The position numbers and the translations under genes were made by a program. Under the pieces are notes generated by a model. It was not told where the DNA came from. It searched no databases and saw only the letters and a program-made list of their open reading frames with translations. Shown piece after piece: positions 4,007 to 21,985 of a DNA stretch of 64,000 bases. How positions within the stretch are numbered: the stretch's first letter is position 1; every line of letters starts with the position of its first letter. Source of the stretch: Vreelandella piezotolerans. Its GTDB lineage: Bacteria; Pseudomonadota; Gammaproteobacteria; Pseudomonadales; Halomonadaceae. The stretch covers positions 3,038,001 to 3,102,000 of the forward strand of contig NZ_CP048602.1 in assembly GCF_012427705.1 (NCBI RefSeq), read 5' to 3'.

Positions 4007-4020
4007 CGCCATCTCCTTTC

Positions 4021-4046
4021 ACACCAACGACCTAGGTCGTTGGTGT
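4021..4046. repeat. Perfect 26-bp palindrome upstream of the YfcG-like gene
   Basis: The half-site ACACCAACGACCT is followed directly by its exact reverse complement, with no spacer. It lies immediately before the ribosome site of the GST gene at 3317-4006 (AAGGAG complement at 4013-4018). It could be an operator or a stem next to the start region. There is no T-run, so it does not look like a terminator. Confidence 0.7.
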
Positions 4047-4062
4047 TGCCTGTGGGTCGTCT

Positions 4063-4079
4063 GACGGCTTATGGCCGTC
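4063..4079 (-). terminator. Small stem-loop after the second GST gene
   Basis: GACGGC and GCCGTC form a 6-bp stem with a 5-nt loop just past the stop of the upstream GST gene (4087). There is no T-run, so intrinsic termination is doubtful. Together with the adjacent palindrome it makes an unusually structured 80-bp spacer. Confidence 0.35.
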
Positions 4080-4086
4080 TCAACGA

Positions 4087-4779: not shown

Positions 4780-5140
4780 CGAGTCATACTCCTTTTGTCA
4801 TTGGGGGGCATCGCCACTACAGTGAGTCTAAGTGATCGACAGCGCAAGCGGCGCGTTTGGCGATGTTGGTGCAAGCGCTTCACACTGTCTATTAGTCTAA
4901 TGAGGCCCACCTAGCTAGCATGCTAACGCAAACTTTAAAGCTCCATAAAAACAACATCTTATTTTAAAACGACCGCTTGGTTCCCATGCTATCTTGCGCC
5001 TATTTACTGGTAAGACCAATTTTCCAATGTAGTCATTCAGCCTGCCTGACCGTATCTTTCACGCTGACCCAACTATCATTGCAATGACGAGTTGGCTTTC
5101 GCGGAGCATACCAAATCAATAACAAGGGGCCGTTCCTCCC
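4780..5140. other. 361-bp divergent intergenic region (GST / lctP)
   Basis: No coding capacity is evident. It holds the promoters of the leftward GST pair and of lctP. The one clear element is the TGGTAAGACCA box at 5008-5018. The lctP ribosome site is probably the AAGGGG at 5124-5129, 11 bp before the ATG. The middle section (about 4920-5000) is AT-richer than its surroundings. Confidence 0.6.
5008..5018 (+). promoter_or_regulatory. GlcC/LldR-type operator upstream of lctP
   Basis: TGGTAAGACCA fits the TNGTNNNACNA pattern known for FadR-subgroup GntR regulators (FadR, PdhR, LldR, GlcC). It lies 122 bp before the lctP start. A box of the same form is found between glcC and glcD, so the glcC product encoded 14 kb away is a plausible regulator; no lldR gene is in the window. 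Confidence 0.6.
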
Positions 5141-6832
<1,692 letters not shown>

Positions 6833-6906: not shown

Positions 6907-7431
6907 TCAACCAATCCGCTTCAGAGTCGTTGCATGCTGCTGGCCTCGAATCACATAGCTTTGCGCATTGAGCTTCAGTGCCTCCACCGCCTCCGCCGTC
7001 AGCTCTCTGACCACTTTGGCGGGTGAGCCGACGATCAACGAGTTTGGCGGAAATACCGCCCCTTCCTTGATGAAGGCCCCCGCGCCTACCAAGCTGTTCT
7101 CGCCAATCACGGCGCCGTTGAGCACTACCGCCTGAATGCCGATCAAACAGCCATCCCCTACGGTACAGCCATGCAGCATCGCCTGGTGCCCGACGGTCAC
7201 CCCCTTTCCCACCTTCAGCGGGTAGCCGGGGTCCGCGTGCAGCACGGCGCCATCTTGAATGTTGCTCTCTTCACCGATGTCCAGATGGTCGCTGTCGCCG
7301 CGCAGTACGGCTTGATACCACACGCTGGCGCGAGCCTTCAGGGTAACCTGACCGATAACGTCCGCCGTGTCGGCAATGTATACGTCTTCATGAATAGCGG
7401 GCTGATGCTCGCCAAATTGATAGATGGCCAC
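6907..7431 (-). CDS. Gamma carbonic anhydrase family protein (YrdA-like)
   Basis: A 174-residue left-handed beta-helix protein of the gamma carbonic anhydrase/hexapeptide-repeat family. Hexapeptide-like turns recur through the middle (ADVIGQVTLKARASVWYQAV, GEESNIQDGAVLHAD, KVGKGVTVGHQAMLHGCTVG, GCLIGIQAVVLNGAVIG). The His residues in VLHAD, GHQAML and LHGCTVG correspond to the usual metal ligands. Homologues form trimers; many have weak or no carbonic anhydrase activity and act on other metabolites. The GTG start at 7431 is supported by AAGGAG 6 bp upstream. It lies 28 bp downstream of the FAD/Fe-S dehydrogenase on the same strand and could be its last co-transcribed gene. Confidence 0.88.
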   Translation of the reverse strand: MAIYQFGEHQPAIHEDVYIADTADVIGQVTLKARASVWYQAVLRGDSDHLDIGEESNIQDGAVLHADPGYPLKVGKGVTVGHQAMLHGCTVGDGCLIGIQAVVLNGAVIGENSLVGAGAFIKEGAVFPPNSLIVGSPAKVVRELTAEAVEALKLNAQSYVIRGQQHATTLKRIG

Positions 7432-7459: not shown

Positions 7460-10400
7460 TCAGGCTAGCGCTTGCGCCAGCAGGCGAGCAACGTGAATCG
7501 CTTGGCGTCCGCTGCCATCCTGAATTTGATGGCGACAGCTGGTGCCATCGGCCACCAACACCGCCTGCTCATTCGCGCTTCGCACGGCAGGCAACAGCGT
7601 CAGCTCTGCCATTTTCATCGAGGCTTCGTAGTGTTCGGCTTCGTAGCCAAAACTGCCTGCCATGCCGCAGCAGGACGACTCGATCGTCTCGACCGCCACG
7701 CCAGGAATCCAGCTCACCACTTGTTCTACCGGACGCAACGCATCAAACGCTTTCTGGTGGCAGTGGCCATGCAGCATCACGCGCTGGCCTTCCATGGGCT
7801 TGAGCGTTAACGACAGCGCTCCTGTCGAGTGAGCATGTAGCAAAAACTCCTCAAACAGATAGGCAGCTTCCGACAATGCCTGCGCCTGTTCGCCAAAGCC
7901 ATACTGCAAGAATTCATCACGCATGCTGAGCAAACACGAGGGCTCCAACCCCACCACGGCCACGCCACGCTCCACGAACGGCATCAGGAAATCCAGCGTG
8001 CGCTGTGCCTCGGCCTTGGCTTTCTCGAACTGGCCCGAAGAGAGGTAGGTGCGGCCACAGCAGAGCGGCCGCTGACCTTGGGTCACGTTAAGATGAACCT
8101 GATAACCAGCGGCCTCCAGCACTCGCTTGGCGGCGGAGGCATTGTCGGCCTCCATATAGTTATTGAAGGTATCCACAAACAGCAGGACTTCTTTCTCTGC
8201 AATTGGCCTCTCTGCAATTGGCCTCTTAGCGATTGACGAAGAGGCCGCCGTCGCCAGGAAGTTGCCGTTAAACGCGGGGAGCGCTCTTTGCGGGGCGAGC
8301 TTGAGCGCCTGCTTGATGCGCTTCGCCAGCCAGGGAGCCCGTTCGATACCGTTCACCAAACCTGAGAACCGGCTAGCCCAAGGGGCGTAACGGGGCATTT
8401 CGCCAACCATGCGATCACGCAACGTGAGGCCTTTGGCGCGCACCCGGGCCGCCCGCGCTTCGATCTTGAACTTGGCCATATCAACGCCCGTGGGGCAGTC
8501 GCGTTTGCAGCCTTTACAAGAAACGCATAGGTCCAGCGCTTCTTTCACCTCATCGCTGGCGAGTCCTTCATCCCCCAACTGCCCCGAGAGCACCTGTCGA
8601 AGCGTGTTTGCTCTACCTCGGGTCAGGTGCTGCTCCTCTTTGGTGATGCGGTAGCTTGGGCACATGGTGCCTGCATCGAACTTGCGACAGTGGCCGTTGT
8701 TGTTGCACATCTCGACCGCCATGGCCAAGCCATGGGTCGTGTCTCCGGCACTGCCAGGAGGCGTTTGCTCACCCGTGAGCGGATCTCGCTTCACGTTCCA
8801 GGAGGACCAATCGAATACCGGTGTCATCGGAATACGCTGATAGGTGGACGGAAAACGGAAGTAGCGCTCGTCATCCATTTTCGGGGTATCGACGATTTTT
8901 CCAGGATTGAGCAGGTTCTGCGGATCAAAGAGCTGTTTCACTTCGCGGAAAGCGTCATTGATGGTCTCGCCAAACTGCCAAGCAACCCACTCGCCACGGC
9001 AAATACCGTCGCCGTGCTCACCCGAGTACGCGCCCTTGTACTCACGTACCAGCGCAGAGGCCAGCTCTGCGATTTCACGCATTTTTTGCGCCCCGTCGCG
9101 GCGCATGTCCAGAATGGGGCGAACGTGTAGCGTGCCGACCCCCGCATGGGCGTACCAGGTGCCCTCTGTGCCATAGCGATTGAATACCTCGGTGAGCTTT
9201 GCGGTGTACTCGGCAAGGTGCTCGAGAGGAACGGCGCAATCTTCGATGAAGGAGACCGGCTTACCATCGCCTTTCATGCTCATCATGATATTGAGCCCAG
9301 CCTTGCGCACGTTCCACAGCGCTTTCTGCTCGGCCGCCTCCGGCATATTCACCACGCTGCCGGGCAGTCCTAAATCACTCATCAACTCATTCAAGCGGCG
9401 TAACGCTTCAAGCTGGGCATCTCGGTCTTGCCCGGCAAACTCCACCAGCAAAATGGCTTCCGGCTTGCCGATCAGCGCTTTTTCGATCACCGGCCTGAAC
9501 GCCGGATTCTCAAGCGAGAGCTCGATCATCGTGCGGTCGACGAGTTCGACTGCCATCGGCCCCAGCTTGACGATATGCTGGGTAAAATCCATGGCTTGAT
9601 AGAACGTGGGGAAGTTGACGACCCCCAGCACTTTTTGTTCGGGGAGCGGCGACAGCTTCAGCTTGATACGGCGGCTTACCCCGAGCGTCCCTTCAGAGCC
9701 GATAAGCAAGTGCGCTAAATTCGCCCGCCCATTCGGGTCATAGGGGATAGGGTTTTGGCAGTCGAACAGGTCGAGGTTATAGCCCCCCACGCGACGCAAC
9801 ACTTTGGGAAAGTGGTCGCGAATATCATGGCCGACCCGCTCGGCAATGGCTTTTACCTGCTGGGCAAGTTGGTGTTCTCTTGTGCCCTCAGCGAACCCAT
9901 CTACAAAGCTGAAATTCACGTCGCATCCATCGGCCAGCGTGGCTTCGATGCCCTCGACGTTGTGCACCATGTTGCCGTAGTAAATAGAGCGCGACCCGCA
10001 GGAGTTGTTGCCTGCCATGCCGCCAATGGTGCACTGGGCACTGGTGGAGACATCCACCGGATACCATAGCCCATGGGGCTTGAGCCAAGCATTGAGATGA
10101 TCCAGCACCATGCCTGGCTCCACCACCACGGTGCGTGCGTCGGGGTCGAACTCCACCACTTGGTTCAGCCAGCGCGTGGTATCGATGACCAATGCCTCAC
10201 CCACGGTTTGACCACACTGGCTGGTGCCTGCCCCACGTGCCAACACCGGCACGTGGGCGTCACGGGCAATGTCCAGGGCAATTTTCAAATCTTCCTGATG
10301 GCGTGGGAGTATCACGCCCACGGGGGTTACCTGATAAATGGATGCGTCAGTGGCATAACGCCCCCGAGTCGCCTGATCAAATAAGACATCGCCTGTGAGC

Positions 10401-10483
10401 TCTCGTGAAAGCCGTTCAGCCAGACCGCTGATCGGCTTGATCTTGGCATCTCTAGGCGCAGGTTGGCTGGTCAGTGACGTCAT
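7460..10483 (-). CDS. FAD- and Fe-S-containing 2-hydroxyacid dehydrogenase (YdiJ/Dld-II type)
   Basis: A single 1007-residue chain fusing the parts that glycolate oxidase splits between GlcD and GlcF. The N-terminal half is a PCMH-type FAD domain (VPVLARGAGTSQCGQTVG, TIGGMAGNNSCGSRSIYYGN) with a C-terminal FAD-oxidase cap (TWYAHAGVGTLHVRPILDMR, YSGEHGDGICRGEW). Then come [4Fe-4S] motifs, CVSCKGCKRDCP plus an upstream Cys pair, and two CCG domains (PLCCGRTYLSSG, ESSCCGMAGSFGYE). Relatives oxidise D-lactate or D-2-hydroxyglutarate and reduce quinone; the substrate is open. It is 16 bp downstream of the aminotransferase gene and co-transcribed with it. GGAG precedes the ATG at 10483. A 15-bp tandem repeat lies in the linker. 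Confidence 0.9.
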   Translation of the reverse strand: MTSLTSQPAPRDAKIKPISGLAERLSRELTGDVLFDQATRGRYATDASIYQVTPVGVILPRHQEDLKIALDIARDAHVPVLARGAGTSQCGQTVGEALVIDTTRWLNQVVEFDPDARTVVVEPGMVLDHLNAWLKPHGLWYPVDVSTSAQCTIGGMAGNNSCGSRSIYYGNMVHNVEGIEATLADGCDVNFSFVDGFAEGTREHQLAQQVKAIAERVGHDIRDHFPKVLRRVGGYNLDLFDCQNPIPYDPNGRANLAHLLIGSEGTLGVSRRIKLKLSPLPEQKVLGVVNFPTFYQAMDFTQHIVKLGPMAVELVDRTMIELSLENPAFRPVIEKALIGKPEAILLVEFAGQDRDAQLEALRRLNELMSDLGLPGSVVNMPEAAEQKALWNVRKAGLNIMMSMKGDGKPVSFIEDCAVPLEHLAEYTAKLTEVFNRYGTEGTWYAHAGVGTLHVRPILDMRRDGAQKMREIAELASALVREYKGAYSGEHGDGICRGEWVAWQFGETINDAFREVKQLFDPQNLLNPGKIVDTPKMDDERYFRFPSTYQRIPMTPVFDWSSWNVKRDPLTGEQTPPGSAGDTTHGLAMAVEMCNNNGHCRKFDAGTMCPSYRITKEEQHLTRGRANTLRQVLSGQLGDEGLASDEVKEALDLCVSCKGCKRDCPTGVDMAKFKIEARAARVRAKGLTLRDRMVGEMPRYAPWASRFSGLVNGIERAPWLAKRIKQALKLAPQRALPAFNGNFLATAASSSIAKRPIAERPIAEKEVLLFVDTFNNYMEADNASAAKRVLEAAGYQVHLNVTQGQRPLCCGRTYLSSGQFEKAKAEAQRTLDFLMPFVERGVAVVGLEPSCLLSMRDEFLQYGFGEQAQALSEAAYLFEEFLLHAHSTGALSLTLKPMEGQRVMLHGHCHQKAFDALRPVEQVVSWIPGVAVETIESSCCGMAGSFGYEAEHYEASMKMAELTLLPAVRSANEQAVLVADGTSCRHQIQDGSGRQAIHVARLLAQALA
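8194..8238. repeat. Tandem 15-bp repeat inside the dehydrogenase gene
   Basis: Two identical 15-bp units (TCTCTGCAATTGGCC, 8194-8208 and 8209-8223) are followed by a degenerate third (8224-8238). On the coding strand they encode the repeated pentapeptide pattern IAKRP-IAERP-IAEKE, in the linker between the Fe-S part and the first CCG domain. Frame is kept, so copy-number change would only lengthen or shorten the linker. Confidence 0.8.
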
Positions 10484-10499
10484 GACACTTCTCCCCTTT

Positions 10500-11723
10500 T
10501 TAACGCGCCTGATGGTCGCTTGACGCTTGCAACGGGTTTGCCGCGAAGTACTCCAACGCTGCCAAGACACCGCTGCCGCGCAGTGAAACGCCTGCCAGCT
10601 TCATGCCCGCTTCGCAGCCGCCCAGCGTGGCAATCAGGGTCAAGTCGTTGCAATCCCCCAGGTGCCCGATCCGGAACATCTTGCCTTTCGCCTTGCCAAG
10701 GCCCATTCCCAGCGACAGGTCAAAACGCTCATAGATGATCTTGCGCACGGCATCCGCATCCACGCCTTCCGGCATCACCACCCCGGTGAGTACCGGGGAG
10801 TACAGCGCGGGGTCCTGGCACTGAATCTCCAAGCCCCACGCTTGTACCGCCGCACGCACCCCTGCCGCCCAGCGCTGGTGGCGGGCCAGTACCTGTGGCA
10901 TACCCTCATCCAGCAGCATGTCGAGCGCCTCGTTAAGGCCGTACAGCAAGTTGGTGCTGGGGGTATAGGGCCAATAGCCGTTCTGGTTGGCTTCCAGGAT
11001 TTCATCCCAGGCCCAGAAACTCTTGGGCAGCTTGGCCTGTTTGCTCACCTTGATCGCTTTGGGTGAGAGCGCATTGAAGCTGATGCCCGGTGGCAGCATC
11101 AGGCCCTTTTGTGAGCCGGACACCGTGACATCCACGCCCCACTCATCGTGGCGGTAATCGGCACTGGCCAACCCGGAAATGGTATCCACAATCAATAAGG
11201 CCGGATGATTGGCCTCATCGATGGCGCGACGAACCTCAGCGATGTCACTGGTGACCCCCGTGGAAGTTTCGTTGTGCACCACACAGACCGCTTTGATCTC
11301 GTGGTCAGGGTCGTCTTTTAGCCGCTCTTTGATCATCTCGGCCTGCACGCCTTGGCGCCAGCCTTCATACCCCGGCAGACCAATGAATTCCGGCGTTAGA
11401 TCCAGACGCAGCGCCATCTTGTGCCACAGCGTAGCGAAGTGGCCTGTTTCGAACATCAGCACCCGGTCGCCAGGCGACATGGTGTTGGCAAGCGCCGCCT
11501 CCCATGCGCCCGTGCCTGAGGCGGGGTAGATCACTACCGGGTGCTCGGTCTTGAATACCTGCTTGGTCTTGGCCAGCAGTTCGCGGCCCAGCGCGCCGAA
11601 CTCTGGCCCGCGGTGATCGATCGTTGGCAGGCTCATGGCGCGCAGGATGCGGTCGGGCACCGGCGATGGGCCAGGAATCTGCAGAAAATGACGACCGGAG
11701 GGGTGAAAATCGAGTTTCAACAT
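10500..11723 (-). CDS. Class V aminotransferase (serine/aspartate-glyoxylate type)
   Basis: A 407-residue PLP enzyme of the serine-glyoxylate/alanine-glyoxylate aminotransferase family. Seen: the N-terminal IPGPSPVPDRILRAMSLPTIDHRGPEF, the cofactor region YPASGTGAWEAALANTMSPGD, VVHNETSTGV, the Asp of LIVDTISGLAS, the Schiff-base Lys in TVSGSQKGLMLPPG and the C-terminal FRIGHLGDCN. The family moves an amino group from serine, alanine or aspartate to glyoxylate, making glycine. Such an enzyme beside glycolate oxidase would consume the glyoxylate that GlcDEF makes. The ATG at 11723 has AGGAAG 7 bp upstream and replaces a longer open frame. It leads the aminotransferase-dehydrogenase unit; its promoter region carries a TGAATTCA palindrome. 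The amino donor is not predictable. Confidence 0.88.
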   Translation of the reverse strand: MLKLDFHPSGRHFLQIPGPSPVPDRILRAMSLPTIDHRGPEFGALGRELLAKTKQVFKTEHPVVIYPASGTGAWEAALANTMSPGDRVLMFETGHFATLWHKMALRLDLTPEFIGLPGYEGWRQGVQAEMIKERLKDDPDHEIKAVCVVHNETSTGVTSDIAEVRRAIDEANHPALLIVDTISGLASADYRHDEWGVDVTVSGSQKGLMLPPGISFNALSPKAIKVSKQAKLPKSFWAWDEILEANQNGYWPYTPSTNLLYGLNEALDMLLDEGMPQVLARHQRWAAGVRAAVQAWGLEIQCQDPALYSPVLTGVVMPEGVDADAVRKIIYERFDLSLGMGLGKAKGKMFRIGHLGDCNDLTLIATLGGCEAGMKLAGVSLRGSGVLAALEYFAANPLQASSDHQAR

Positions 11724-11786
11724 GATGTCGCTTCCTATTGTTGTTTTGAGGCGGTTGTCGCGAAACAGCACGGCACAAAATTGGAT

Positions 11787-11798
11787 AATGAATTCAAA
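11787..11798. promoter_or_regulatory. TGAATTCA palindrome upstream of the aminotransferase
   Basis: AATGAATTCAAA contains the 8-bp palindrome TGAATTCA, in the 92-bp space between the CoA-transferase stop and the aminotransferase start. The same core occurs before dctP and before the local gntR gene, which suggests a shared operator. Confidence 0.5.
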
Positions 11799-11815
11799 CT
11801 GTATTTTTAAAAAAA

Positions 11816-13003
11816 CTACTTTATGCACCCTTCGGCACGCAGTGTGTCACGCTCTTCATCCGACAGGCCCAATTGCTCGAGCACCTCGTCGGTATGCTGA
11901 GCAAAGAGCGGTGCTGAAGAGCGGATCTGAGCAGGTGTGCGTGAGAACTTGCTGGGAAAGCCGATGGTTTTCATTTTGCCGATCACCGGATGGTCCATCT
12001 CCTCCACCATGCCACGGGCCAAGTAGTGCTCATCCTGCATGGCCTGGGCAAAGTCATTGATGGGGCCTGCCGGTACGCCTGCGGTATCGCAGAGTGTCAG
12101 CCACTCATCGACGGTCTGGTGGGCCATCAGCTCTTCGAGCAGCGCCTCCAGTTCATCCACATGCTGGCCACGGTCATAGTTGGTCAGAAAGCGGGGGTCT
12201 TCCATCAGTGCGGGACGTTTCAATACATCGCCGCAAAACCGCTCCCAGGTTCGTTGGTTGGCGCAGCCCAGCATCAAATAACCATCCTTGGCCTTCACCG
12301 CCTGATAAGGCGCAGACACCCGATGGCGCCAGCCAGTGGGGCCAGGCACGGTGCCTTCAGAGAAGTAAGCCGCCGCTTCCCAGGTAAACCAGGGCAACCC
12401 GCATTCGGTAATGGCGATATCGATATGCTGCCCTTCCCCCGTCTTCATCTTGTGGATGTGGGCGGCCAAAATCGAATAGACCGCCGTGATGCCACCGCCA
12501 ATGTCGTAGACCGCGATACCGGTTTTTAGCGGGCGCCGCCCGGCTTCGCCGGTCATCGACATCAGCCCGGTCATTCCCTGCGCCACCAGATCGAATCCGC
12601 CTCTGTGGCTGTAGGGCCCGGTTTGGCCATACCCCGAAATGGAGCAGTAAACGATACCTGGGTTGATGGCTTTGATGGTGTCGTAGTCGATCGACAGTGA
12701 CTGGGTGACCCCCGGCCGATAGTTCTCGACGATGACATCCGCATCGGCTGCCAGTCGATAAAAGATCTGGCGGGCACGCTCGTCTTTCAGGTTGAGTGAA
12801 ATGCTTTTCTTGTTGCGGTTGATTTGCGAAAAGCAGGTCGACTCGCCGTTCACGTATGGCCCCATCTGACGGCTGTCATCACCGCCATTGAGTTTCTCTA
12901 CCTTGATGACCTCGGCCCCCATATCCGCTAGCACCATGGTGCAGTAAGGGCCAGCCATGATTTGTGACACATCGAGGACTTTTATATCTTGTAAAGGAAG
13001 CAT
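11816..13003 (-). CDS. CaiB/BaiF class III CoA-transferase
   Basis: A 395-residue family III CoA-transferase; members swap CoA between acyl-CoA and a free carboxylate through an aspartyl-CoA anhydride. Seen: the N-terminal VLDVSQIMAGPYCTMVLADM, the NRNKKSISLNLK stretch, ENYRPGV, SGYGQTGP and GFDLVAQGMTGLM. The likely catalytic Asp is D167 in TGIAVYDIGGG, matching Asp169 of formyl-CoA transferase. It is downstream of the crotonase in the dctPQM run (gap 52 bp), so it probably activates the imported acid or recycles CoA from the product. Which acid is unknown: family members act on formate/oxalate, carnitine, acrylate/3-hydroxypropionate, itaconate and others. Confidence 0.9.
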   Translation of the reverse strand: MLPLQDIKVLDVSQIMAGPYCTMVLADMGAEVIKVEKLNGGDDSRQMGPYVNGESTCFSQINRNKKSISLNLKDERARQIFYRLAADADVIVENYRPGVTQSLSIDYDTIKAINPGIVYCSISGYGQTGPYSHRGGFDLVAQGMTGLMSMTGEAGRRPLKTGIAVYDIGGGITAVYSILAAHIHKMKTGEGQHIDIAITECGLPWFTWEAAAYFSEGTVPGPTGWRHRVSAPYQAVKAKDGYLMLGCANQRTWERFCGDVLKRPALMEDPRFLTNYDRGQHVDELEALLEELMAHQTVDEWLTLCDTAGVPAGPINDFAQAMQDEHYLARGMVEEMDHPVIGKMKTIGFPSKFSRTPAQIRSSAPLFAQHTDEVLEQLGLSDEERDTLRAEGCIK

Positions 13004-13055
13004 GCGCTTTCCTCCTCAAGCCTGTGATAGGCATCTACTGAGCAGAGCGGCAGCC

Positions 13056-13862
13056 TTACTGGCCGCGCCACTCAAAAGGCGTTTTATTGACGAATTTGTT
13101 CACCGCTGCCGAGAAATCCTGGCTCAGGTAGCAAGTGGCCACCCAATCGTCGCTGGCATCGGCCGGGAGCCGCCGCTGGGCCTGCACGCGATTGATCAGC
13201 GCCTTGCTGGCCTGCAGGGTCAGGGGTGCATATTTGGCAAATTCGGCGGCAATGGTGGCGACTTCGGCGTAGATATCCGCCCCATCGAACAGCTGATTGA
13301 CCAAACCCGCGCCCAGCGCCTCTTCTGCCGTCACCAGTTTCGCCATCATCAACACTTCTTTCGTGCGCGGGATACCGACCATATCCACCAGCCGAGACAC
13401 GTTGGTAATGGAGAGCGTGTTGCCCAGCGTCTTGGCAATGGGCACGCCAAATTTCAGCGTGTCGGTGGCATAGCGAAAATCACATACCAGCGCCAACGCC
13501 GCGCCGCCGCCTACACAGGCCCCATCGATCAGCGCCAGCGTGGGTTTCGGAAAGGTTTCCAGCTTTCCCACCACGCGGTCGATGCGCCGCTCGTAGCCAA
13601 TGGCATCCTCCGCTTCCGCAAAATGTGCAAACTGGGTGATGTCGGTACCCGCCACGAAGGCGTCTCCGCCGACACCGTGAAGCACCAGAGCGTGGATATC
13701 GGTATCGTCGGCTAACGTGTCGCAGTAGTACTCCAAGGCGTTGTACATTTCCCACGTCATGGCATTGCGGCTTTGCGGACGGTTGAACCCTAACCAGGCC
13801 ACACCGTCTTTCACCTCGAAGCGCACACTCTCAGTGGTGGGTGCTTGTCGTTGCTGTGTCAT
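13056..13862 (-). CDS. Enoyl-CoA hydratase/isomerase family protein, catalytic Glu pair missing
   Basis: A 268-residue crotonase-fold protein. The CoA-binding and oxyanion-hole regions are present: RPQSRNAMTWEM, the DAFVAGTDI strand (usually AFxAGxDI) and DGACVGGGAALALVCDFRYA. The two glutamates that hydrate enoyl-CoAs (Glu144 and Glu164 of rat enoyl-CoA hydratase) are replaced by A122 (GGGAAL) and I142 (FGVPIA). A plain hydratase reaction is therefore unlikely; crotonase relatives without these residues act as isomerases, hydrolases, decarboxylases or lyases. The ATG at 13862 has AAGGGG 7 bp upstream and starts 10 bp after dctM, so it is in the transporter operon just before the CoA-transferase. 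Its substrate is presumably the CoA ester of the imported acid. Confidence 0.88.
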   Translation of the reverse strand: MTQQRQAPTTESVRFEVKDGVAWLGFNRPQSRNAMTWEMYNALEYYCDTLADDTDIHALVLHGVGGDAFVAGTDITQFAHFAEAEDAIGYERRIDRVVGKLETFPKPTLALIDGACVGGGAALALVCDFRYATDTLKFGVPIAKTLGNTLSITNVSRLVDMVGIPRTKEVLMMAKLVTAEEALGAGLVNQLFDGADIYAEVATIAAEFAKYAPLTLQASKALINRVQAQRRLPADASDDWVATCYLSQDFSAAVNKFVNKTPFEWRGQ

Positions 13863-13872
13863 GGAGCACCCC

Positions 13873-15156
13873 TTATCCGTAGATGAAGTTGACCAATGCC
13901 AGGGCAAAGGCAGGAATGTAGGTATTGATCATCAAAATCGTGAACAGTACGGCAATGAACCAGAGATTGGTTCTGGACGTGGCCCAGATGTCTGATTTCG
14001 CAATGGAGCAGGAGGCAATCAATACGCTGGCAACCGGCGGGGTCTGCTGCCCAATGGCCAGGTTCAGCGTGACGATCAGACCGAAGTGCAGCGGGTCGAT
14101 ACCCACTTCCAGTACCAGCGGCAGCACGATAGGGACGACCAGAATGATGGCGGCTGCCGAGTGCAGGAACACACCGAGAATCAGGAAGATGATGTTCAGC
14201 AGTGCCAGGATCACATACTTGTTGCTGGTCAGGTCGCTGATTTGCAAAGCAATGGCCTGAGGAATACGGGTTTCGGTCAGATACCCGCCCACCACCGCAG
14301 ACGCCGCCACGAGCAGCATGACGACGGCAGTTTGCACACCAGCGCTTTTGCACGAGTCGATGAAGTTCTTGAGGGTAAACTCGCGATAGACCACCGCACT
14401 GATGAAGATGGCGACACACACTGCCAGCGCAGCACCCTCCGTCGCCGTCACGAAGCCGCCGAAAATCCCACCCAGAATGATGACCGGAATCAACAGCGCC
14501 CAAACGGCCTCTTTCAGTGCCTTCCAGAGTTGCGACACCCGGAAACGACCTTCAGAGGGGAAGTTGTACTTACGCGCCAGGTAGTAGCACATGGCCGCCA
14601 AGCCCATCGCCCCCAGCAGGCCAGGAAAGATACCGGCCACGAACATCTGAACGACCGACTCCCCCGACATGACCGCGTACAGAATCATGGGTATGGAAGG
14701 CGGAAGGATAATTGCCAGACTGGCCGCCGAAGAGGAAATCGAGGCGGCAAACTCTTTGGAGTACCCCTTCTTGCGCATGGCAGGAATCAAGATACTGCCA
14801 ATCGCCGACACGCCCGCCACCGATGACCCGGAAATTTCGGCAAAGAACACCGACGCACCGATGGTCACCATCGACAGGCCACCCTTGATGAACCCCACCA
14901 TGGCCATGGCCAGATCGATCAAGCGTCGCGAGATGCTGGAGGCGTTCATGATGGCACCTGCCAGAATGAACAGCGGGATGGCAATCAACGGAAAGTTGGT
15001 TGCCCCCTCGAACATCGTCATACCCACCGTCGGCATCGCCATGCTGCCGTAGGTAATGAAGGTGGCGATCGTCCCCACCAATGCCAGAGCGACCGCCACC
15101 GGCACATTGATCAAGATCAGCGCAATCAGTGCAATGAAGATATAGAGAATGATCAT
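13873..15156 (-). CDS. dctM: TRAP transporter large permease DctM
   Basis: A 427-residue, roughly 12-helix inner-membrane protein of the DctM family, the ion-coupled permease of a TRAP transporter. Family stretches include IAIPLFILAGAIMNAS, the conserved FAEISGSSVAGVSAIGSILIP and a late ATEGAALAV plus PPVASVLIASCSIAKSD. It works with the small subunit DctQ (9 bp upstream) and the periplasmic receptor DctP to take up organic acids on a sodium gradient, which suits a halophile. The next genes downstream are the crotonase and the CoA-transferase, so the transporter probably brings in the substrate of those enzymes. Confidence 0.94.
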   Translation of the reverse strand: MIILYIFIALIALILINVPVAVALALVGTIATFITYGSMAMPTVGMTMFEGATNFPLIAIPLFILAGAIMNASSISRRLIDLAMAMVGFIKGGLSMVTIGASVFFAEISGSSVAGVSAIGSILIPAMRKKGYSKEFAASISSSAASLAIILPPSIPMILYAVMSGESVVQMFVAGIFPGLLGAMGLAAMCYYLARKYNFPSEGRFRVSQLWKALKEAVWALLIPVIILGGIFGGFVTATEGAALAVCVAIFISAVVYREFTLKNFIDSCKSAGVQTAVVMLLVAASAVVGGYLTETRIPQAIALQISDLTSNKYVILALLNIIFLILGVFLHSAAAIILVVPIVLPLVLEVGIDPLHFGLIVTLNLAIGQQTPPVASVLIASCSIAKSDIWATSRTNLWFIAVLFTILMINTYIPAFALALVNFIYG

Positions 15157-15165
15157 GATGGTTAC

Positions 15166-15726
15166 TTATCCTCGCGGCTGGGTGCTAACGGCTTCAATGT
15201 CGTCGGCATCGATACCGGCCTCTTCAAGCTCGTGGTCGATGAAGCCTTTTCCGCGGGCACTTCTCACTATGTCGGGTAGCCGTAGCAGCTCCGCGATGAT
15301 GAACAGCACCGATGCAATGGGAATGGCCGACTGCACCACTTGCATGGAAATAGCCGGCAGACTCACCATGTTCATGCCGTCGAGAATCAGCATGACTTGA
15401 TAGCTCGCCAGCCCCAGAAATATGAAAAAACCAATGGTGATCGCTTCGGCGAGTAATGCGACTGGCACACGAATGGAGGGCGGACACATATTCAGTACAC
15501 TAGGACATGTAATGTGAGCCCCTTTAGCGGCCGCCAAAGCCGCCCCGTAATACGTTACCCAAGCCAATAGAACGGCCGCCAATTCGTCATACCAACTCAA
15601 CGGAGAACCTAAATAGCGAGAAACGAAGCCAATGGTGACCACCCCCGCTAACGCAATCACCAACACCACAACGATACCTTCAAGAAATGCAAAGTAAGCA
15701 TTCTTGAATTTGGTATAAGCGCTCAT
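15166..15726 (-). CDS. dctQ: TRAP transporter small permease DctQ
   Basis: A 186-residue membrane protein with four predicted helices (about residues 12-35, 45-65, 85-110 and 125-150), the size and topology of DctQ subunits. Typical elements are GFVSRYLGSPLSWYDELAAVLLAWVTYYGAALA followed by a GAHI motif. The C-terminal 30 residues are acidic and hydrophilic (EEAGIDADDIEAVS), which is somewhat long for the family. It sits between dctP and dctM; a stem-loop in the 69-bp space after dctP may lower its expression relative to the binding protein. Confidence 0.92.
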   Translation of the reverse strand: MSAYTKFKNAYFAFLEGIVVVLVIALAGVVTIGFVSRYLGSPLSWYDELAAVLLAWVTYYGAALAAAKGAHITCPSVLNMCPPSIRVPVALLAEAITIGFFIFLGLASYQVMLILDGMNMVSLPAISMQVVQSAIPIASVLFIIAELLRLPDIVRSARGKGFIDHELEEAGIDADDIEAVSTQPRG

Positions 15727-15751
15727 TGAAACCTCCTTTAGGAAGAGACGC

Positions 15752-15769
15752 CCACCTCCAAAGAGGTGG
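15752..15769 (-). terminator. Intercistronic stem-loop between dctP and dctQ
   Basis: CCACCTC and GAGGTGG form a 7-bp stem with a CAAA loop. There is no T-run, so it is more likely a partial terminator or 3' end stabiliser for the dctP message, which would keep the binding protein in excess over the permease. Confidence 0.45.
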
Positions 15770-15795
15770 AACGCCGCTTCGAGATGATGGCTTGG

Positions 15796-16773
15796 TTATT
15801 CGCGCAGGGCAGCGACGGCATCCAGCATTTCCTGGCCGCCTTCGACATCATTGGCAAAGGTGTCATAAATGGACTGAGAGGCGGCCACGAAGGCATCGAA
15901 GTCTACTTCGTTCACTTCCATTCCCGCATCACGCATCAGAACCAACGTCTCATCATCCAGACGCTGCCCCTCTTCCAGAGCAAAGTCTTCGAGTTCAAGA
16001 GCGACTTCCTGCAGCACGTTACGGACATCGTCAGGTAGGCGATTCCAACTGGCACCGGCGGTTAAATAGGCGGGGGTATAAACGTGATTGGAAATAGAGA
16101 GATAGTCTTGCACTTCGTGAAAACGCGAGGAGTAGGTTTGAATCAGCGGGTTCTCTTGACCATCCATGGCTCCTGTCTGCAGGGCCACGAATACTTCGGA
16201 GAGCGACATGGGAGAAGGCGCGGCACCATAGCTGCGGAACATCTCTATCCGCCAAACACCGCTCGGGGTGCGTAATTTGATGCCGCCAAGATCTTCAGGA
16301 GTGGTAATAGGGCGTACGTTATTGGTGATTTGGCGGAAGCCATTTTCCCACACGGCAATAATGTTAAAGCCCTTGGCTTGGGCCGCCTCATAGAGCGGGC
16401 CACGGACGACTTCATCGCGAACGCGTTTCATGTGCTCGCGATCCTCAATCAGATAAGGCATTTCAAACAGTGCAAACTGCTCGGCTTCTGAGCTCATGAC
16501 CGTTGAGGGAATCGCAAGATCGAGCGAACCAAGACGCAGACGACGCATCATGGACTCGTCGCTACCTAACTGGCTATTGCCATAGACATTCACTTCGGCA
16601 GCGCCGTCCAAGCGTTCATTGGCCAGCTCAGCAAAGCGGTTAGCAGTAATTTCAAACAGCGAGCCAGGCCCACCGACGTGGCCAAGCCTCACCTCGAGGT
16701 TAGCGCTGGCAACCGATGCGTGTAGCCCGAAGGTAACGGCAGCTGCCGCTAGCGCAGTCTTGATAAATTTCAT
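15796..16773 (-). CDS. dctP: TRAP transporter periplasmic solute-binding protein DctP
   Basis: A 325-residue periplasmic receptor. The first 28 residues are a Sec signal peptide (MKFIKTALAAAAVTFGLHAS, cleavage probably after SVASA). The mature protein starts NLEVRLGHVGGPGSLFE. The family's carboxylate-binding Arg is likely in GGIKLRTPSG; the conserved GAMDGQENPLIQTY follows, and then the long hinge helix near the C-terminus. TRAP receptors bind acids with a free carboxylate; the ligand is not predictable from sequence. The ATG at 16773 is chosen because the signal peptide begins there and TTGGAG lies about 8 bp upstream. A perfect TTTGAATTCAAA palindrome lies about 50 bp upstream and is the likely operator of the operon. 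Confidence 0.93.
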   Translation of the reverse strand: MKFIKTALAAAAVTFGLHASVASANLEVRLGHVGGPGSLFEITANRFAELANERLDGAAEVNVYGNSQLGSDESMMRRLRLGSLDLAIPSTVMSSEAEQFALFEMPYLIEDREHMKRVRDEVVRGPLYEAAQAKGFNIIAVWENGFRQITNNVRPITTPEDLGGIKLRTPSGVWRIEMFRSYGAAPSPMSLSEVFVALQTGAMDGQENPLIQTYSSRFHEVQDYLSISNHVYTPAYLTAGASWNRLPDDVRNVLQEVALELEDFALEEGQRLDDETLVLMRDAGMEVNEVDFDAFVAASQSIYDTFANDVEGGQEMLDAVAALRE

Positions 16774-16822
16774 GGGGTACTCCAAGTGAACCGTTGTTGT
16801 TGTTGGGTCTTCACCATTTCAA

Positions 16823-16834
16823 TTTGAATTCAAA
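16823..16834. promoter_or_regulatory. TTTGAATTCAAA palindrome upstream of dctP
   Basis: A perfect 12-bp palindrome followed by a partial second copy (TTCAAAATT). It lies in the AT-rich promoter region of dctPQM and has the size and symmetry of an FCD-type GntR operator. The regulator encoded at 17673-18353 is the obvious candidate. Confidence 0.6.
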
Positions 16835-16920
16835 ATTCAAAATTAGGTATTAAACTTTCGTCTTGAAGCAGCCTCCTAAGCGTCAACTTACTGATACACC
16901 TAGCATTTAAAAAAGTGATG

Positions 16921-16952
16921 ACATAAAAAAAGCAGCGTTCGACGAACGCTGC
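16921..16952 (-). terminator. Terminator of the GlcG/HbpS-like gene
   Basis: GCAGCGTTC and GAACGCTGC form a perfect 9-bp stem with a 3-nt loop, followed on the minus strand by a run of seven T residues. It separates the GlcG-like gene from dctP transcriptionally. Confidence 0.9.
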
Positions 16953-16977
16953 CTGCTTGAACGACCACCTCGTTGGC

Positions 16978-17451
16978 CTAATGCTCTTCGCCACCGGGCG
17001 CTAACCCCCAGTGCAAATCGGCCGCTTTGATACCGGCAATGGCGACTTGCTGATCCTCTTCTGACGAAGCGCCACTCACCCCCACGGCACCTATGACACA
17101 TTGCTCTCCATCAAGAATAGGCACGCCTCCCGCCACCGGCACAAAATGCCCTTTCGAAGCCGCTGCAACGCTAGCAAGAAACGCAGGGCGTTCGATATTG
17201 CGTTCCCCAATAATGCCGCTGGCAATGCCCATACCCAGTGCGGCGTGTGCTTTTCCCTGAGCCACCGGAAAACGTAGTGGCGCGCAGCCATCTTCACGCT
17301 CGGCAGCCACCACATGGCCACCTCCATCCAGCACTACCAGCGTGAGAGGCGGAAGACCGACTTTTCTCGCCCGTGCCCTCGCCCCGTCTAAGATGGCTCT
17401 GGCCTGCTCTCGACTCAACTGAACGCTACACATGAAAATATTCATTGCCAT
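16978..17451 (-). CDS. GlcG/HbpS family protein
   Basis: A 157-residue member of the GlcG/HbpS (DUF336) family. Family stretches: LPPLTLVVLDGGGHVVAAERED, FPVAQGKAHAALGMG, FVPVAGGVPILDGEQCVIGAVGVSGAS and EEDQQVAIAGIKA. Relatives include heme-binding HbpS and the unexplained GlcG of glycolate operons. No signal peptide is seen. The ATG at 17451 has AGGAG 8 bp upstream; two later in-frame ATGs lack one. It is divergent from the gntR gene and lies beside the TRAP cluster, much as the second paralogue (23300-23701) sits beside glcDEF. That pairing suggests a job tied to hydroxyacid oxidation, but no reaction can be assigned. Confidence 0.85.
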   Translation of the reverse strand: MAMNIFMCSVQLSREQARAILDGARARARKVGLPPLTLVVLDGGGHVVAAEREDGCAPLRFPVAQGKAHAALGMGIASGIIGERNIERPAFLASVAAASKGHFVPVAGGVPILDGEQCVIGAVGVSGASSEEDQQVAIAGIKAADLHWGLAPGGEEH

Positions 17452-17535
17452 ACATTGGCTCCTACATGGTTATTGATTGTTATGGGGAGCAGTTGGGTCA
17501 CTGCCGCCTATCTAGCATAGCTCGACTTGCTACAA

Positions 17536-17545
17536 TTGAATTCAT
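17536..17545. promoter_or_regulatory. TTGAATTCAT palindrome in the GlcG-like / gntR divergent region
   Basis: It contains the same TGAATTCA core (17537-17544) as the sites before dctP and the aminotransferase. Its position between the two divergent starts fits autoregulation of the GntR protein. Confidence 0.5.
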
Positions 17546-17672
17546 AATTACTTTTGCGAATCATACAAAGAGTCGCCAATATAAGCGTATGGCTTTGTGT
17601 TCAAATGGTGTTTACAAAGCGGCACCCGTCGCTTGGTGGATACCAAGCGGATACACAAGAAGGGACAGAACA

Positions 17673-18353
17673 ATGACGAAAATTTTACAGCGTAATCTTT
17701 ATCGTGAAGTCGCTGACCGCATTGGTGAGCTGATTGAGCACGGTGAACTGGCCCCGGGTGAGCGGATCTCAGAAAAGCAGCTTTGCGAACGGTTCGGCGT
17801 ATCACGCACGCCGCTTCGAGAAGCACTCAAGGTGCTGGCCACAGAGGGGCTTATCGAGCTGCTGCCCAATCGAGGTGCGCGGGTGGTGCGCTTGACGTTC
17901 AAAAAAGTGAAAGATACCTACGACTTAATGGCAGCATTGGAAGGTTTGTCCGGCGAGCTCGCCTGCCAGCACATCAGCGACGCTGAAATTGCGGCTATAC
18001 GTGCCTTACACGATGCCATGCTCGAACACTATCGCCATCGAGATCTGGCCACTTATTTCGAGATCAACCAGCAGATCCATGAAAGCATTTTGGCCGCTTC
18101 GCGTAATGAGGTGTTGCAAGAGATGTACAGCAACCTCAGTCAGCGCGTAAAGCGAGTGCGCTACTCGAAAAAAATGACCCAAAAATTTTGGAGCCAAGCC
18201 GTTCAAGATCACGAGAACATGATCTCCGCGCTCGAGCAGCGCGACAGTAAACGACTTGGGCAAATTTTACGCGACCACCTGTGCAACAAGCTGGAAGTGG
18301 CCACCTTGGCAGGCGTCATTGAGGATGACAGCCTGAGTGCGGCCAACGCTTAA
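17673..18353 (+). CDS. GntR-family transcription regulator with FCD domain
   Basis: A 226-residue regulator. Residues 1-75 are the GntR winged helix (LYREVADRIGELIEHGELAPG, QLCERFGVSRTPLREALKVL, wing LIELLPNRGARVVRLT). Residues 80-220 are the helical FCD domain, with the usual metal/ligand Asp and His positions in DLATYFEINQQIHESIL and QDHENMISALEQRD. The ATG at 17673 has GGGA 8-9 bp upstream; the longer open frame (from 17445) runs back through the promoter region. It is divergent from the GlcG-like gene and close to dctPQM, and very likely controls both through the TGAATTCA sites. It ends 4 bp from the convergent glcC stop. The inducer is probably the imported acid or a derivative. Confidence 0.88.
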   Translation: MTKILQRNLYREVADRIGELIEHGELAPGERISEKQLCERFGVSRTPLREALKVLATEGLIELLPNRGARVVRLTFKKVKDTYDLMAALEGLSGELACQHISDAEIAAIRALHDAMLEHYRHRDLATYFEINQQIHESILAASRNEVLQEMYSNLSQRVKRVRYSKKMTQKFWSQAVQDHENMISALEQRDSKRLGQILRDHLCNKLEVATLAGVIEDDSLSAANA

Positions 18354-19353: not shown

Positions 19354-20853
19354 ATGAATATCCTTTTCGACGAGCGCCTCGATGGCGAGCTTGTCCACCG
19401 TGATAAAGCTGACGTACTCAGCGACCTGCAAGGCGCTGTCCCCTCTTTGACGCTATTGCATCGCGAGGAAGATTTACGTCCTTTCGAGTGCGATGGCCTC
19501 GCCGCCTATCGCGTGCTGCCCATGTTGGTGGCGCTACCGGAAACGCTGGAACAGGTCGAAGGCCTGTTGAAGCGCTGCCACGCGCTGGGCGTACCGGTGG
19601 TTACCCGCGGCGCAGGCACCGGCCTGTCCGGCGGTGCGCTACCGCTCGAACAGGGCGTGCTGCTGGTCATGTCGCGGTTCAACCAGATCATCAGCGTTGA
19701 TCCTGATGCTCGCATTGCCCGCGTGCAACCAGGAGTGCGCAATCTTGCCATTTCAGAGGCGGCCGCCCCTTACGGGCTCTACTACGCCCCGGACCCCTCC
19801 TCACAAATTGCCTGCTCGATTGGCGGCAACGTGGCTGAAAATGCAGGCGGCGTGCACTGTCTGAAGTATGGTCTTACCGTGCATAACGTCATGCGCGTGG
19901 ATGTCCTGACCATTGAAGGCGAACGTATGACGCTGGGCTCTGAAGCCCTGGATGCCCCCGGTTTCGACCTTCTGGCTTTGATGAACGGGTCAGAAGGCAT
20001 GCTAGGCGTGGTCACGGAAATTACCGTGAAGCTGCTGCCCAAACCGGAAACCGCCAAGGTATTGATGGCCAGCTTCGATGATGTGGAAAAAGCGGGCCGC
20101 GCGGTGGGCGACATCATTGCCGCAGGCATTATCCCCGGTGGCCTGGAAATGATGGATAAGCTCGCCATCAAAGCGGCGGAAGATTTCATCAAGGCAGGCT
20201 ACCCCGTGGAGGCCGAAGCCATTCTGCTCTGTGAGCTGGATGGTGTGGAAGCCGACGTGGACGACGACTGCGAGACCGTGCGCCGCGTACTGGAAAAGGC
20301 TGGCGCCACTAACATTCAACAGGCACGTGACGAAGCCGAGCGCGCCAAGTTCTGGGCCGGGCGCAAGAATGCCTTCCCTGCCGTAGGCCGCATGTCGCCG
20401 GACTACTACTGCATGGATGGCACCATTCCCCGCCGCGAGCTGCCGCGCGTGTTGAAAGGCATTGCCGCACTTTCAGAAGAGAGCGGCCTGCCCGTGGCCA
20501 ACGTCTTCCACGCGGGTGACGGCAATATGCACCCGCTGATCCTGTTCGATGCCAACAAAGAGGGTCAGCTTGCCCTGGCGGAAGACGTAGGCGGCAAGAT
20601 CCTGGAGCTATGCGTGGCCGCCGGTGGCTCGATTACCGGCGAGCATGGCGTAGGTCGCGAAAAAATCAACCAGATGTGCAGCCAGTTCCAGCCCGATGAG
20701 CTGACGGTCTTCCACGCGCTGAAAGCGGCGTTCGACCCCAAACGGCTGCTCAACCCAGGGAAAAACATTCCAACCCTGGCGCGCTGTGCCGAATTTGGCG
20801 CGATGCATGTGCATAACAACGAGTTACCGCATCCGGAGCTGCCACGCTTCTGA
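19354..20853 (+). CDS. glcD: Glycolate oxidase subunit GlcD
   Basis: The FAD-binding subunit of glycolate dehydrogenase, which oxidises glycolate to glyoxylate at the membrane. The 499-residue chain has the PCMH FAD domain (GVPVVTRGAGTGLSGGALP, CSIGGNVAENAGGVHCLKYG, NGSEGMLGVVTEITVKLLPK) and the FAD-oxidase C domain (VANVFHAGDGNMHPLILFD, GSITGEHGVGREKI, FDPKRLLNPGKN). Length equals E. coli GlcD. The ATG at 19354 has AGGGA about 8 bp upstream. It is the first gene of glcDEFG; glcE starts 17 bp after its stop. Regulation by GlcC is expected from the operator at 19240. Confidence 0.97.
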   Translation: MNILFDERLDGELVHRDKADVLSDLQGAVPSLTLLHREEDLRPFECDGLAAYRVLPMLVALPETLEQVEGLLKRCHALGVPVVTRGAGTGLSGGALPLEQGVLLVMSRFNQIISVDPDARIARVQPGVRNLAISEAAAPYGLYYAPDPSSQIACSIGGNVAENAGGVHCLKYGLTVHNVMRVDVLTIEGERMTLGSEALDAPGFDLLALMNGSEGMLGVVTEITVKLLPKPETAKVLMASFDDVEKAGRAVGDIIAAGIIPGGLEMMDKLAIKAAEDFIKAGYPVEAEAILLCELDGVEADVDDDCETVRRVLEKAGATNIQQARDEAERAKFWAGRKNAFPAVGRMSPDYYCMDGTIPRRELPRVLKGIAALSEESGLPVANVFHAGDGNMHPLILFDANKEGQLALAEDVGGKILELCVAAGGSITGEHGVGREKINQMCSQFQPDELTVFHALKAAFDPKRLLNPGKNIPTLARCAEFGAMHVHNNELPHPELPRF

Positions 20854-20870
20854 TGCTATAAGGAACCACC

Positions 20871-21971: not shown

Positions 21972-21985
21972 TCAGGAGAGCTGAC

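Follow-up and report, generated by a model that had tools for sequence, protein, structure and literature searches.

A co-conserved gene cluster of Halomonadaceae with a crotonase-fold protein lacking the hydratase glutamates, and a tentative route from a small dicarboxylate to glycine

A nine-gene cluster in the analysed DNA (a stretch of 64,000 nucleotides from Vreelandella piezotolerans, here called the window) brings together a TRAP transporter, a class III CoA-transferase, a crotonase-fold protein, a fused FAD/Fe-S dehydrogenase and a class V aminotransferase whose nearest family is that of the glyoxylate enzymes. The enzyme and transport genes are co-conserved, and the crotonase lacks both glutamates of the hydratases. 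Our tentative proposal is that a dicarboxylate, conjecturally tartronate (hydroxymalonate), would be converted to a CoA-thioester and decarboxylated to glycolyl-CoA, which would be passed on as glycolate, glyoxylate and glycine; the ending in glyoxylate and glycine is the well supported part of this route.

Results

Gene content

Open reading frames and family scans placed the cluster at positions 7460-18353, with eight genes on the minus strand and a divergent GntR/FCD regulator (Table 1), and all the genes named in the preliminary description were recovered. Five of the listed frames probably start too far upstream, and a likelier in-frame ATG downstream was chosen by judgement for each; with the regulator starting at 17673, an overlap with the glcG-like gene is not required. 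In the flanks, glcD was identified by profile scan, and the glcE- and glcF-like frames by eye.

Table 1. Features of the cluster and its flanks in the window, with listed and likelier starts
Feature	Position	Strand	Domains or evidence	Start of listed ORF	Likelier ATG start
LctP-family (lactate/glycolate-type) permease (P0011), neighbour	5141..6832	+	339 bits, cut-off 341		
Hexapeptide-repeat, gamma-carbonic-anhydrase-like protein (P0010)	6907..7431	-	family scan		
Fused FAD/Fe-S 2-hydroxy-acid dehydrogenase (P0001)	7460..10483	-	FAD_binding_4, FAD-oxidase_C, Fer4, CCG	10570	10483
Class V aminotransferase (P0002), aspartate/serine-glyoxylate group	10500..11723	-	Aminotran_5	11828	11723
Class III (CaiB/Frc-type) CoA-transferase (P0003)	11816..13003	-	CoA_transf_3		
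Crotonase-fold protein (P0004), PRK06144 subfamily	13056..13862	-	ECH_1	13907	13862
TRAP transporter (dctM, dctQ and dctP side by side)	13873..16785	-	PF06808, PF04290, PF03480		
dctM, TRAP large permease (P0005)	13873..15156	-	DctM, PF06808		
dctQ, TRAP small permease (P0006)	15166..15726	-	DctQ, PF04290		
dctP, TRAP solute-binding protein (P0007)	15796..16773	-	DctP, PF03480	16785	16773
GlcG/HbpS-like protein (P0008)	16978..17451	-	HbpS-like/GlcG family scan		
Divergent regulator (P0009)	17673..18353	+	GntR and FCD domains	17445	17673
glcD-, glcE- and glcF-like glycolate oxidase genes, neighbours	19354..23218	+			

Conservation of the cluster

A comparison of gene neighbourhoods, as proposed in the preliminary description, bore out its view of the cluster as one unit: of 50 Halomonadaceae loci, 45 contained all seven enzyme and transport genes, more than expected by chance. 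Three of the remaining loci (L072, L075 and L117) are cut by contig ends, and two (L084 and L085) keep the crotonase and CoA-transferase genes without the aminotransferase, the dehydrogenase and this TRAP set. The 45 complete loci all carried the GntR/FCD regulator, together with the GlcG/HbpS-like gene in 42, glcD in 41, the LctP-family permease in 39 and the hexapeptide-repeat gene in 32; the last of these also adjoins the crotonase or CoA-transferase gene in L084, L085, L102, L106, L110, L161, L168 and L173, and is possibly an accessory gene of the cluster.

Among 151 Halomonadaceae genomes, the CoA-transferase and the crotonase were found in an identical set of 55, and the aminotransferase and close FAD/Fe-S dehydrogenase in an identical set of 46, all within the 55; dehydrogenases over threshold at 37-38% identity in G001, G109 and G126 were left out of the close-dehydrogenase count. 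For these and the 398 Proteobacteria genomes below, the thresholds were 1e-140 (CoA-transferase), 1e-50 and 1e-45 (crotonase), 1e-90 and 1e-130 (aminotransferase) and 1e-150 and 1e-190 (dehydrogenase), and the Fisher values for co-occurrence ignore shared ancestry. The co-occurrence of the pairs holds even with about 40 kb between them.

All four enzymes were also found together in other Proteobacteria and in actinobacteria, reordered and with other carriers, while the Acidobacteria loci held two or three of the four. A search of 398 Proteobacteria genomes for the crotonase, the aminotransferase and the dehydrogenase returned sets of 41, 46 and 42 genomes with overlaps of 34, 35 and 41. In some actinobacteria and Acidobacteria the TRAP genes are replaced by MatC-type dicarboxylate carriers, assigned by MatC_N matches in L111 (1.6e-56) and L086 (4.1e-30) and by similarity in L088, L103 and L113, and elsewhere the carriers are of the TRAP, TTT or MFS type. 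Because of the MatC_N carriers at the loci of relatives, a small dicarboxylate is the suggested class of substrate.

The named-genome scan, in which 80 of 112 relatives were kept, included loci that weigh against a single pathway: in 12 of 25 named loci neither aminotransferase nor dehydrogenase lay within 10 kb, a tally covering loci outside Halomonadaceae of at least 8 kb (L093, L095, L100, L105 and L114 being shorter). To the same effect, L149 and L153, also outside Halomonadaceae, have no close CoA-transferase neighbour; in L175 and L183 the aminotransferase and dehydrogenase are found with an MFS carrier, without CoA-transferase or crotonase. Loci L149-L192 were hand-selected from the matches and their gene orders serve as examples, not as counts; the identities of many neighbours were assigned by eye from the beginnings of their ORFs, those of some by profile. 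One of these loci, L180, lies in a 1.2-Mb genome and has a GC content of 32%.

Enzyme assignments

P0004 has the crotonase fold and belongs to the PRK06144 subfamily (336 bits, cut-off 272). The name carried by this best model is enoyl-CoA hydratase. In an alignment of 40 rows, a hand-picked spread as against 3007 relatives in all (120 listed), neither hydratase glutamate (rat Glu144 and Glu164) was present in any row, which argues against P0004 being a hydratase and makes a hydration of the AcuN/AcuK kind unlikely. In L177, L178 and L180 the place of P0004 in the cluster is taken by a second crotonase, in which the first glutamate is retained and the second is missing (3/3 rows), as in the methylmalonyl-CoA decarboxylase of Escherichia coli (ScpB/YgfG); P0004 shares 20% identity with the E. 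coli enzyme but lacks the first glutamate as well. Against the ScpB model PRK11423 it scored 107 bits (cut-off 257), so that P0004 is not classed as a ScpB member, and may at most work like one. In a fold comparison hydratases matched it as well as decarboxylases did, which gives no separation and counts against our reading. An acyl-CoA decarboxylase is a plausible assignment from the sequence features.

P0003 carries the class III CoA-transferase domain (PF02515, 6e-132, residues 4-371 of 395), and its Asp167 stands in the alignment column of Asp169 in the E. coli enzyme Frc, which we take to be the catalytic aspartate; the column is Asp in 7/7 aligned proteins. Its best models were those of succinate-glutarate CoA-transferase (320 bits) and mesaconate CoA-transferase (270 bits), with no cut-off reached. 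We propose that the CoA which P0003 attaches to the incoming diacid comes from the product of the pathway itself.

The nearest relatives of P0002 are glyoxylate enzymes, which assigns it to the aspartate/serine-glyoxylate aminotransferase group: the model of BhcA, an aspartate-glyoxylate aminotransferase, scored 443 bits (next model 178), below its cut-off of 650, and the best solved structure was the serine-glyoxylate aminotransferase 6pk1 (366 bits, next 150). The proposed reaction, judged from these family relations, is glyoxylate to glycine. In L182 the aminotransferase/dehydrogenase pair lies next to a gene for a BhcC-like aldolase (372 bits, cut-off 690); a profile search of the host genome for BhcC gave no matches (control: 3/14 genomes, none over cut-off). 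The presence of malate synthase G in the host genome, in which no glyoxylate carboligase scored over cut-off, counts for the glyoxylate end.

P0001, whose C-terminal part is CCG/Fer4 and whose gene is conserved beside or with the aminotransferase gene, would oxidise glycolate to glyoxylate. In Rubrobacter taiwanensis (L110) GlcF-like and GlcD-like genes stand behind the aminotransferase gene in place of the fused dehydrogenase, at 266 and 355 bits (cut-offs 333 and 568); this exchange, like the glcD and LctP-type neighbours of the Halomonadaceae loci, speaks for an ending in glyoxylate. Two observations weigh against this assignment: P0001 scored highest with YdiJ, a D-2-hydroxyglutarate enzyme (518 bits, cut-off 1350), above GlcD (212 bits, cut-off 568) and GlcF (72 bits, cut-off 333), and with glcDEF in the immediate neighbourhood another glycolate dehydrogenase would be redundant in part.

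Discussion

In the proposed route, DctPQM would import a small dicarboxylic acid, with tartronate as the likeliest candidate, and the CoA-transferase would load it with CoA released from the product of the pathway. The crotonase-fold protein would decarboxylate tartronyl-CoA to glycolyl-CoA through its oxyanion hole, with no hydratase base, much as methylmalonyl-CoA decarboxylase acts on its own substrate. The CoA of glycolyl-CoA would then go to the next tartronate, setting glycolate free for oxidation by the FAD/Fe-S protein and transamination by the class V enzyme. The step order of the preliminary description, CoA-transferase and crotonase followed by 2-hydroxy-acid dehydrogenase and glyoxylate-type aminotransferase, is the best supported one, and its "atypical" crotonase is so indeed; the resemblance to AcuN/AcuK that it had drawn does not hold as a guide to mechanism. 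The listings from literature searches for tartronate and related words showed no natural tartronate pathway, and nothing contrary to the earlier remark that no pathway with exactly this set was known.

The genes might instead form two modules, the crotonase and CoA-transferase acting on an unrelated acid (e.g. malonate or methylmalonate) and the aminotransferase and dehydrogenase making up a separate glycolate-to-glycine module with shared regulation and habitat. This unlikely arrangement would fit genus g4 (G003 and G043), where the pairs lie apart, as well as the nine of 55 Halomonadaceae genomes with the CoA pair and without the aminotransferase and close dehydrogenase, which count against our reading, and the 7/398 Proteobacteria with the other pair without this crotonase. 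However, the second pair without the first was seen in 0/96 genomes from the 151-genome Halomonadaceae set, and in three of the seven Proteobacteria exceptions the slot is taken by another crotonase and CoA-transferase. Hydration of a CoA-activated unsaturated dicarboxylate (fumarate-, mesaconate- or itaconate-like), with the freed D-2-hydroxy acid being oxidised by the dehydrogenase and then transaminated, would agree with the best models of the transferase, the YdiJ likeness of the dehydrogenase and the hydratase name of the crotonase model; it is made distinctly unlikely by the two glutamates missing in 40/40 rows, by a transferase that reaches no model cut-off and by an aminotransferase that groups with glyoxylate enzymes.

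Some crotonases cleave C-C bonds, e.g. hydroxycinnamoyl-CoA hydratase-lyase. If the substrate were tartrate or a different 2,3-dihydroxy acid, retro-aldol cleavage of tartryl-CoA would yield glyoxylate and glycolyl-CoA, the two products going on to the dehydrogenase and aminotransferase, and would account for glycolate and glyoxylate together; a tartrate/D-malate-dehydrogenase-like frame was seen by eye before the crotonase in L166. We consider this very unlikely, since a base is required at the 3-hydroxyl but the usual two places have no conserved acid, and the window's cluster showed no tartrate enzyme. Scarcely credible is an acrylate/3-hydroxypropionate route of the AcuN/AcuK kind, to which the same two protein families belong in Halomonas (PMC13104084): in AcuH (= AcuK), mutation of either of two glutamates left no detectable activity (PMC5651017), and both are absent here, while the Halomonas D47 cluster, as listed in PMC13104084, has no aminotransferase or FAD/Fe-S dehydrogenase.

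The tartronate proposal extends, as a doubtful but arguable possibility, to a natural tartronyl-CoA pathway in several phyla, including L180, leading from hydroxymalonate through glycolate and glyoxylate to glycine, with two different crotonases recruited to one step. If the tartronate reading is true, this catabolic cassette, which spans phyla, would hold a natural enzyme for tartronyl-CoA and serve as a biological sink of an oxidised C3 acid. It would also give a new activity to a subfamily labelled "enoyl-CoA hydratase" in databases, and the engineering of photorespiration bypasses could draw on its natural parts. Even with a wrong substrate, the absent glutamates speak against the hydratase annotation of the crotonase relatives.

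The closest parallel to the putative CoA cycle between transferase and decarboxylase is the degradation of oxalate, in which formyl-CoA:oxalate CoA-transferase (Frc) works with oxalyl-CoA decarboxylase (Oxc) and CoA is likewise recycled from the decarboxylated product to the next diacid. P0003 is 30% identical to Frc and shares its catalytic Asp column, with the Frc cut-offs missed; Oxc is a thiamine enzyme, and here a crotonase would stand in its place. P0001 agrees with the GlcDEF glycolate oxidase in the types of its FAD and Fe-S domains and in its proposed reaction, but is a single fused polypeptide. The beta-hydroxyaspartate cycle supplies, in BhcA, the nearest aminotransferase model to P0002, below cut-off. 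AcuN/AcuK of Halomonas are likewise a CoA-transferase and crotonase pair with other partner genes (PMC13104084), and AcuH/AcuK hydrates with two glutamates that our crotonase lacks, a contrast drawn from the AcuH requirement (PMC5651017). The synthetic tartronyl-CoA (TaCo) pathway, whose carboxylase is termed new-to-nature in the abstract of PMC10729300, would share the intermediates glycolyl-CoA and tartronyl-CoA; it is man-made and carboxylating, whereas the route proposed here would be natural and decarboxylating and, if true, its catabolic counterpart.

Organization and conservation of the cluster

In the host genome (G000, 3.95 Mb, one contig; the window is G000:C1:3038001-3102000), the genes for a GlcG-like protein, DctP, DctQ, DctM, a crotonase-fold protein, a class III CoA-transferase, a class V aminotransferase and a fused FAD/Fe-S dehydrogenase are transcribed in that order from the minus strand, divergently from a GntR/FCD regulator gene; likelier start codons were assigned for five of the cluster genes. 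The cluster is flanked on one side by genes of the glycolate oxidase type together with a second GntR regulator, and on the opposite side by a hexapeptide-repeat protein and a permease of the LctP family.

A crotonase scan of named genomes retained 80 loci out of 112 relatives, the nearest named one being Vreelandella hamiltonii (97% crotonase identity). The three dct genes and the four enzyme genes occurred all together in 45 of the 50 Halomonadaceae loci, accompanied by GntR (45/45), glcG-like (42/45), glcD (41/45), LctP permease (39/45) and hexapeptide protein (32/45) genes, and the entire block was also present in a Stutzerimonas stutzeri record (L083). The gene set named in the preliminary description was confirmed, as genes present and conserved as a unit. 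Broken alignments in many cluster genes of Halomonas olivaria TYRC17 (L081) suggest frameshifts in that assembly.

Outside the Halomonadaceae, 25 named loci spanned 8 kb or more. The CoA-transferase lay within 3 kb of the crotonase in 22 of them, the aminotransferase within 10 kb in 8 and a dehydrogenase within 10 kb in 10; neither of the latter two was found within 10 kb in 12 loci, which held the crotonase–CoA-transferase pair or the crotonase alone. The cluster genes were rearranged in hand-chosen outside examples, and in the Acidobacteria the stretch covered never contained all four enzymes together, three being the maximum.

Gene arrangements and individual features at loci (L) of relatives
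Locus	Coordinates	Observation
L154, L167		dehydrogenase and GntR divergent from aminotransferase-dctPQM-crotonase-CoA-transferase
L163		as L154/L167, with TctC-type binding protein
L149, L153		crotonase-aminotransferase with TctABC genes; dehydrogenase divergent; no close CoA-transferase neighbour
L103, L111, L113 (actinobacteria)		CoA-transferase-crotonase, IclR regulator, MatC-type carrier, then aminotransferase-dehydrogenase
L086, L088, L094, L098, L116 (Acidobacteria)		crotonase, CoA-transferase, dehydrogenase
L089, L097, L108 (Acidobacteria)		crotonase, CoA-transferase, aminotransferase
L090, L091, L101, L104 (Acidobacteria)		crotonase, CoA-transferase; neither aminotransferase nor dehydrogenase
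L177	12264-13112	second crotonase subfamily, ~30% identical; retains the first glutamate but not the second
L178	13252-14202	same subfamily
L180	14654-15433	same subfamily
L182	10594-11862	BhcC-like 3-hydroxyaspartate aldolase (372 bits, cut-off 690)
L174	7972-9060	threonine-aldolase-type PLP enzyme
L184	8075-9145	threonine-aldolase-type PLP enzyme
L175	9019-9786	small FAA-hydrolase/MhpD-like gene between MFS carrier and dehydrogenase; Pfam match weak
L183	9060-9809	same position and type; no Pfam match
L149 (genome G364)	3932-6694	methylthioribose-1-phosphate isomerase, methylthioadenosine phosphorylase and class II aldolase between tctB-like and tctC genes; reminiscent of 5'-deoxynucleoside salvage
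L155	1173-6477	TRAP set, amidohydrolase-like and 3-hydroxyisobutyrate-dehydrogenase-like gene near crotonase/CoA-transferase (assigned by eye)
L084	1-4431	as L155 (assigned by eye)

Co-occurrence across genomes

The crotonase was detected in 55 of 151 Halomonadaceae genomes and the CoA-transferase in the identical 55. The aminotransferase was present in 46 and the dehydrogenase in 49, 46 of them at ≥69% identity; these 46 were the same genomes as the aminotransferase 46, all within the crotonase 55. Linkage alone does not account for this pattern, since the aminotransferase-dehydrogenase pair lies ~40 kb away from the crotonase in one genome (G003) and on a separate contig in two others (G043 and G131).

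Across 398 Proteobacteria, 41 genomes had the crotonase, 46 the aminotransferase and 42 the dehydrogenase; the sets overlapped by 34, 35 and 41, and the Fisher values for these overlaps ignore shared ancestry. Seven genomes carried the aminotransferase and dehydrogenase without this crotonase. In three of them (L177, L178 and L180) the same place is taken by another crotonase, 27-32% identical to this one, whose neighbour is a CoA-transferase of 45-47% identity; the 1.2 Mb genome and 32% GC locus of L180 suggest a SAR11-like source. No replacement crotonase was seen in the stretch covered at three more (L175, L176 and L179), and for the seventh (G460) the aminotransferase contig alone was read (L188).

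A probable glyoxylate/glycine end

The best model for the aminotransferase was the aspartate-glyoxylate aminotransferase BhcA (443 bits, next model 178), and its best solved relative a serine-glyoxylate aminotransferase (366 bits, against 150 for the next). Its relatives from Rubrobacter and Prauserella behaved in the same way. Two genes take the place of the fused dehydrogenase after the aminotransferase of Rubrobacter taiwanensis (L110): first a GlcF-like one (266 bits, cut-off 333), then one resembling GlcD (355 bits, cut-off 568), both below the equivalog cut-offs. The tabulated aldolase-type genes adjoin the aminotransferase-dehydrogenase pair (L182) or the dehydrogenase (L174, L184), the low-specificity L-threonine aldolase cut-off being exceeded in L174 only, not in L184. 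Amination is a sensible outlet for glyoxylate, because the host genome has malate synthase G above cut-off and lacks a BhcC match, and its glyoxylate-carboligase matches all stay below cut-off (301 of 711 bits at best).

The pathway interpretation in the preliminary description was supported in part. The cluster is quite probably a conserved unit ending in glyoxylate/glycine, and a hydratase role for the crotonase is somewhat disfavoured.

A probable small dicarboxylate at the substrate end

Carrier type varies between loci (TRAP, TTT, MatC/CitMHS and MFS); MatC_N is a dicarboxylate carrier according to Pfam, and MatC carries malonate. The CoA-transferase retains the catalytic Asp column in the alignment and is similar to enzymes that use succinate, mesaconate or oxalate, with no model cut-off reached. 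From these sequence comparisons, the near end of the pathway would be a small dicarboxylate.

Working backwards from glycolate, tartronate would be the simplest candidate: its CoA-thioester would yield glycolyl-CoA by decarboxylation on a crotonase fold that lacks the customary base, and CoA would be recycled from glycolyl-CoA as in oxalate breakdown. The balance tips slightly towards a non-hydratase role for the crotonase, decarboxylation being the most likely one; tartronate itself is a tentative choice of substrate, and its nearest single-pathway alternative is tartrate, via retro-aldol cleavage.

Several observations count against the route from tartronate to glycine. The dehydrogenase scored higher against YdiJ than against GlcD, and a fused dehydrogenase is partly redundant given the adjoining glcDEF. 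Nine of the 55 Halomonadaceae genomes have the crotonase and CoA-transferase without the aminotransferase and close dehydrogenase; the two such loci read (L161 in G020, L168 in G126) carry a TctA-type carrier, a single-domain FAD oxidase, an aldehyde dehydrogenase and a 3-hydroxyisobutyrate-dehydrogenase-like gene, with a PdxA-like gene additionally in L168. With 845 bits, the L168 aldehyde dehydrogenase exceeds the cut-off for succinate-semialdehyde (828 bits); the 3-hydroxyisobutyrate-dehydrogenase-like protein of that locus is nearest to tartronate-semialdehyde reductase, below cut-off (171 of 341 bits). Aidingimonas lacisalsi (L084) is akin to these, with a PdxA-like gene and, as in L161 and L168, aldehyde dehydrogenase and tartronate-semialdehyde-reductase-like genes where the aminotransferase and fused dehydrogenase would stand; Halotalea alkalilenta (L085) differs in carrying genes for a glycerate kinase and an MFS carrier. 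These extra genes may supply the pathway or take over some of its steps, or signal another substrate. L175 and L183 have the aminotransferase, dehydrogenase and an MFS carrier, with CoA-transferase and crotonase absent nearby. The incomplete enzyme sets in Acidobacteria and the 12 outside loci with the CoA pair or crotonase alone slightly weaken the case for the tartronate route.

The protein families of the cluster are already known; titles and abstract openings returned by a literature search contained neither this gene combination nor the proposed reaction.
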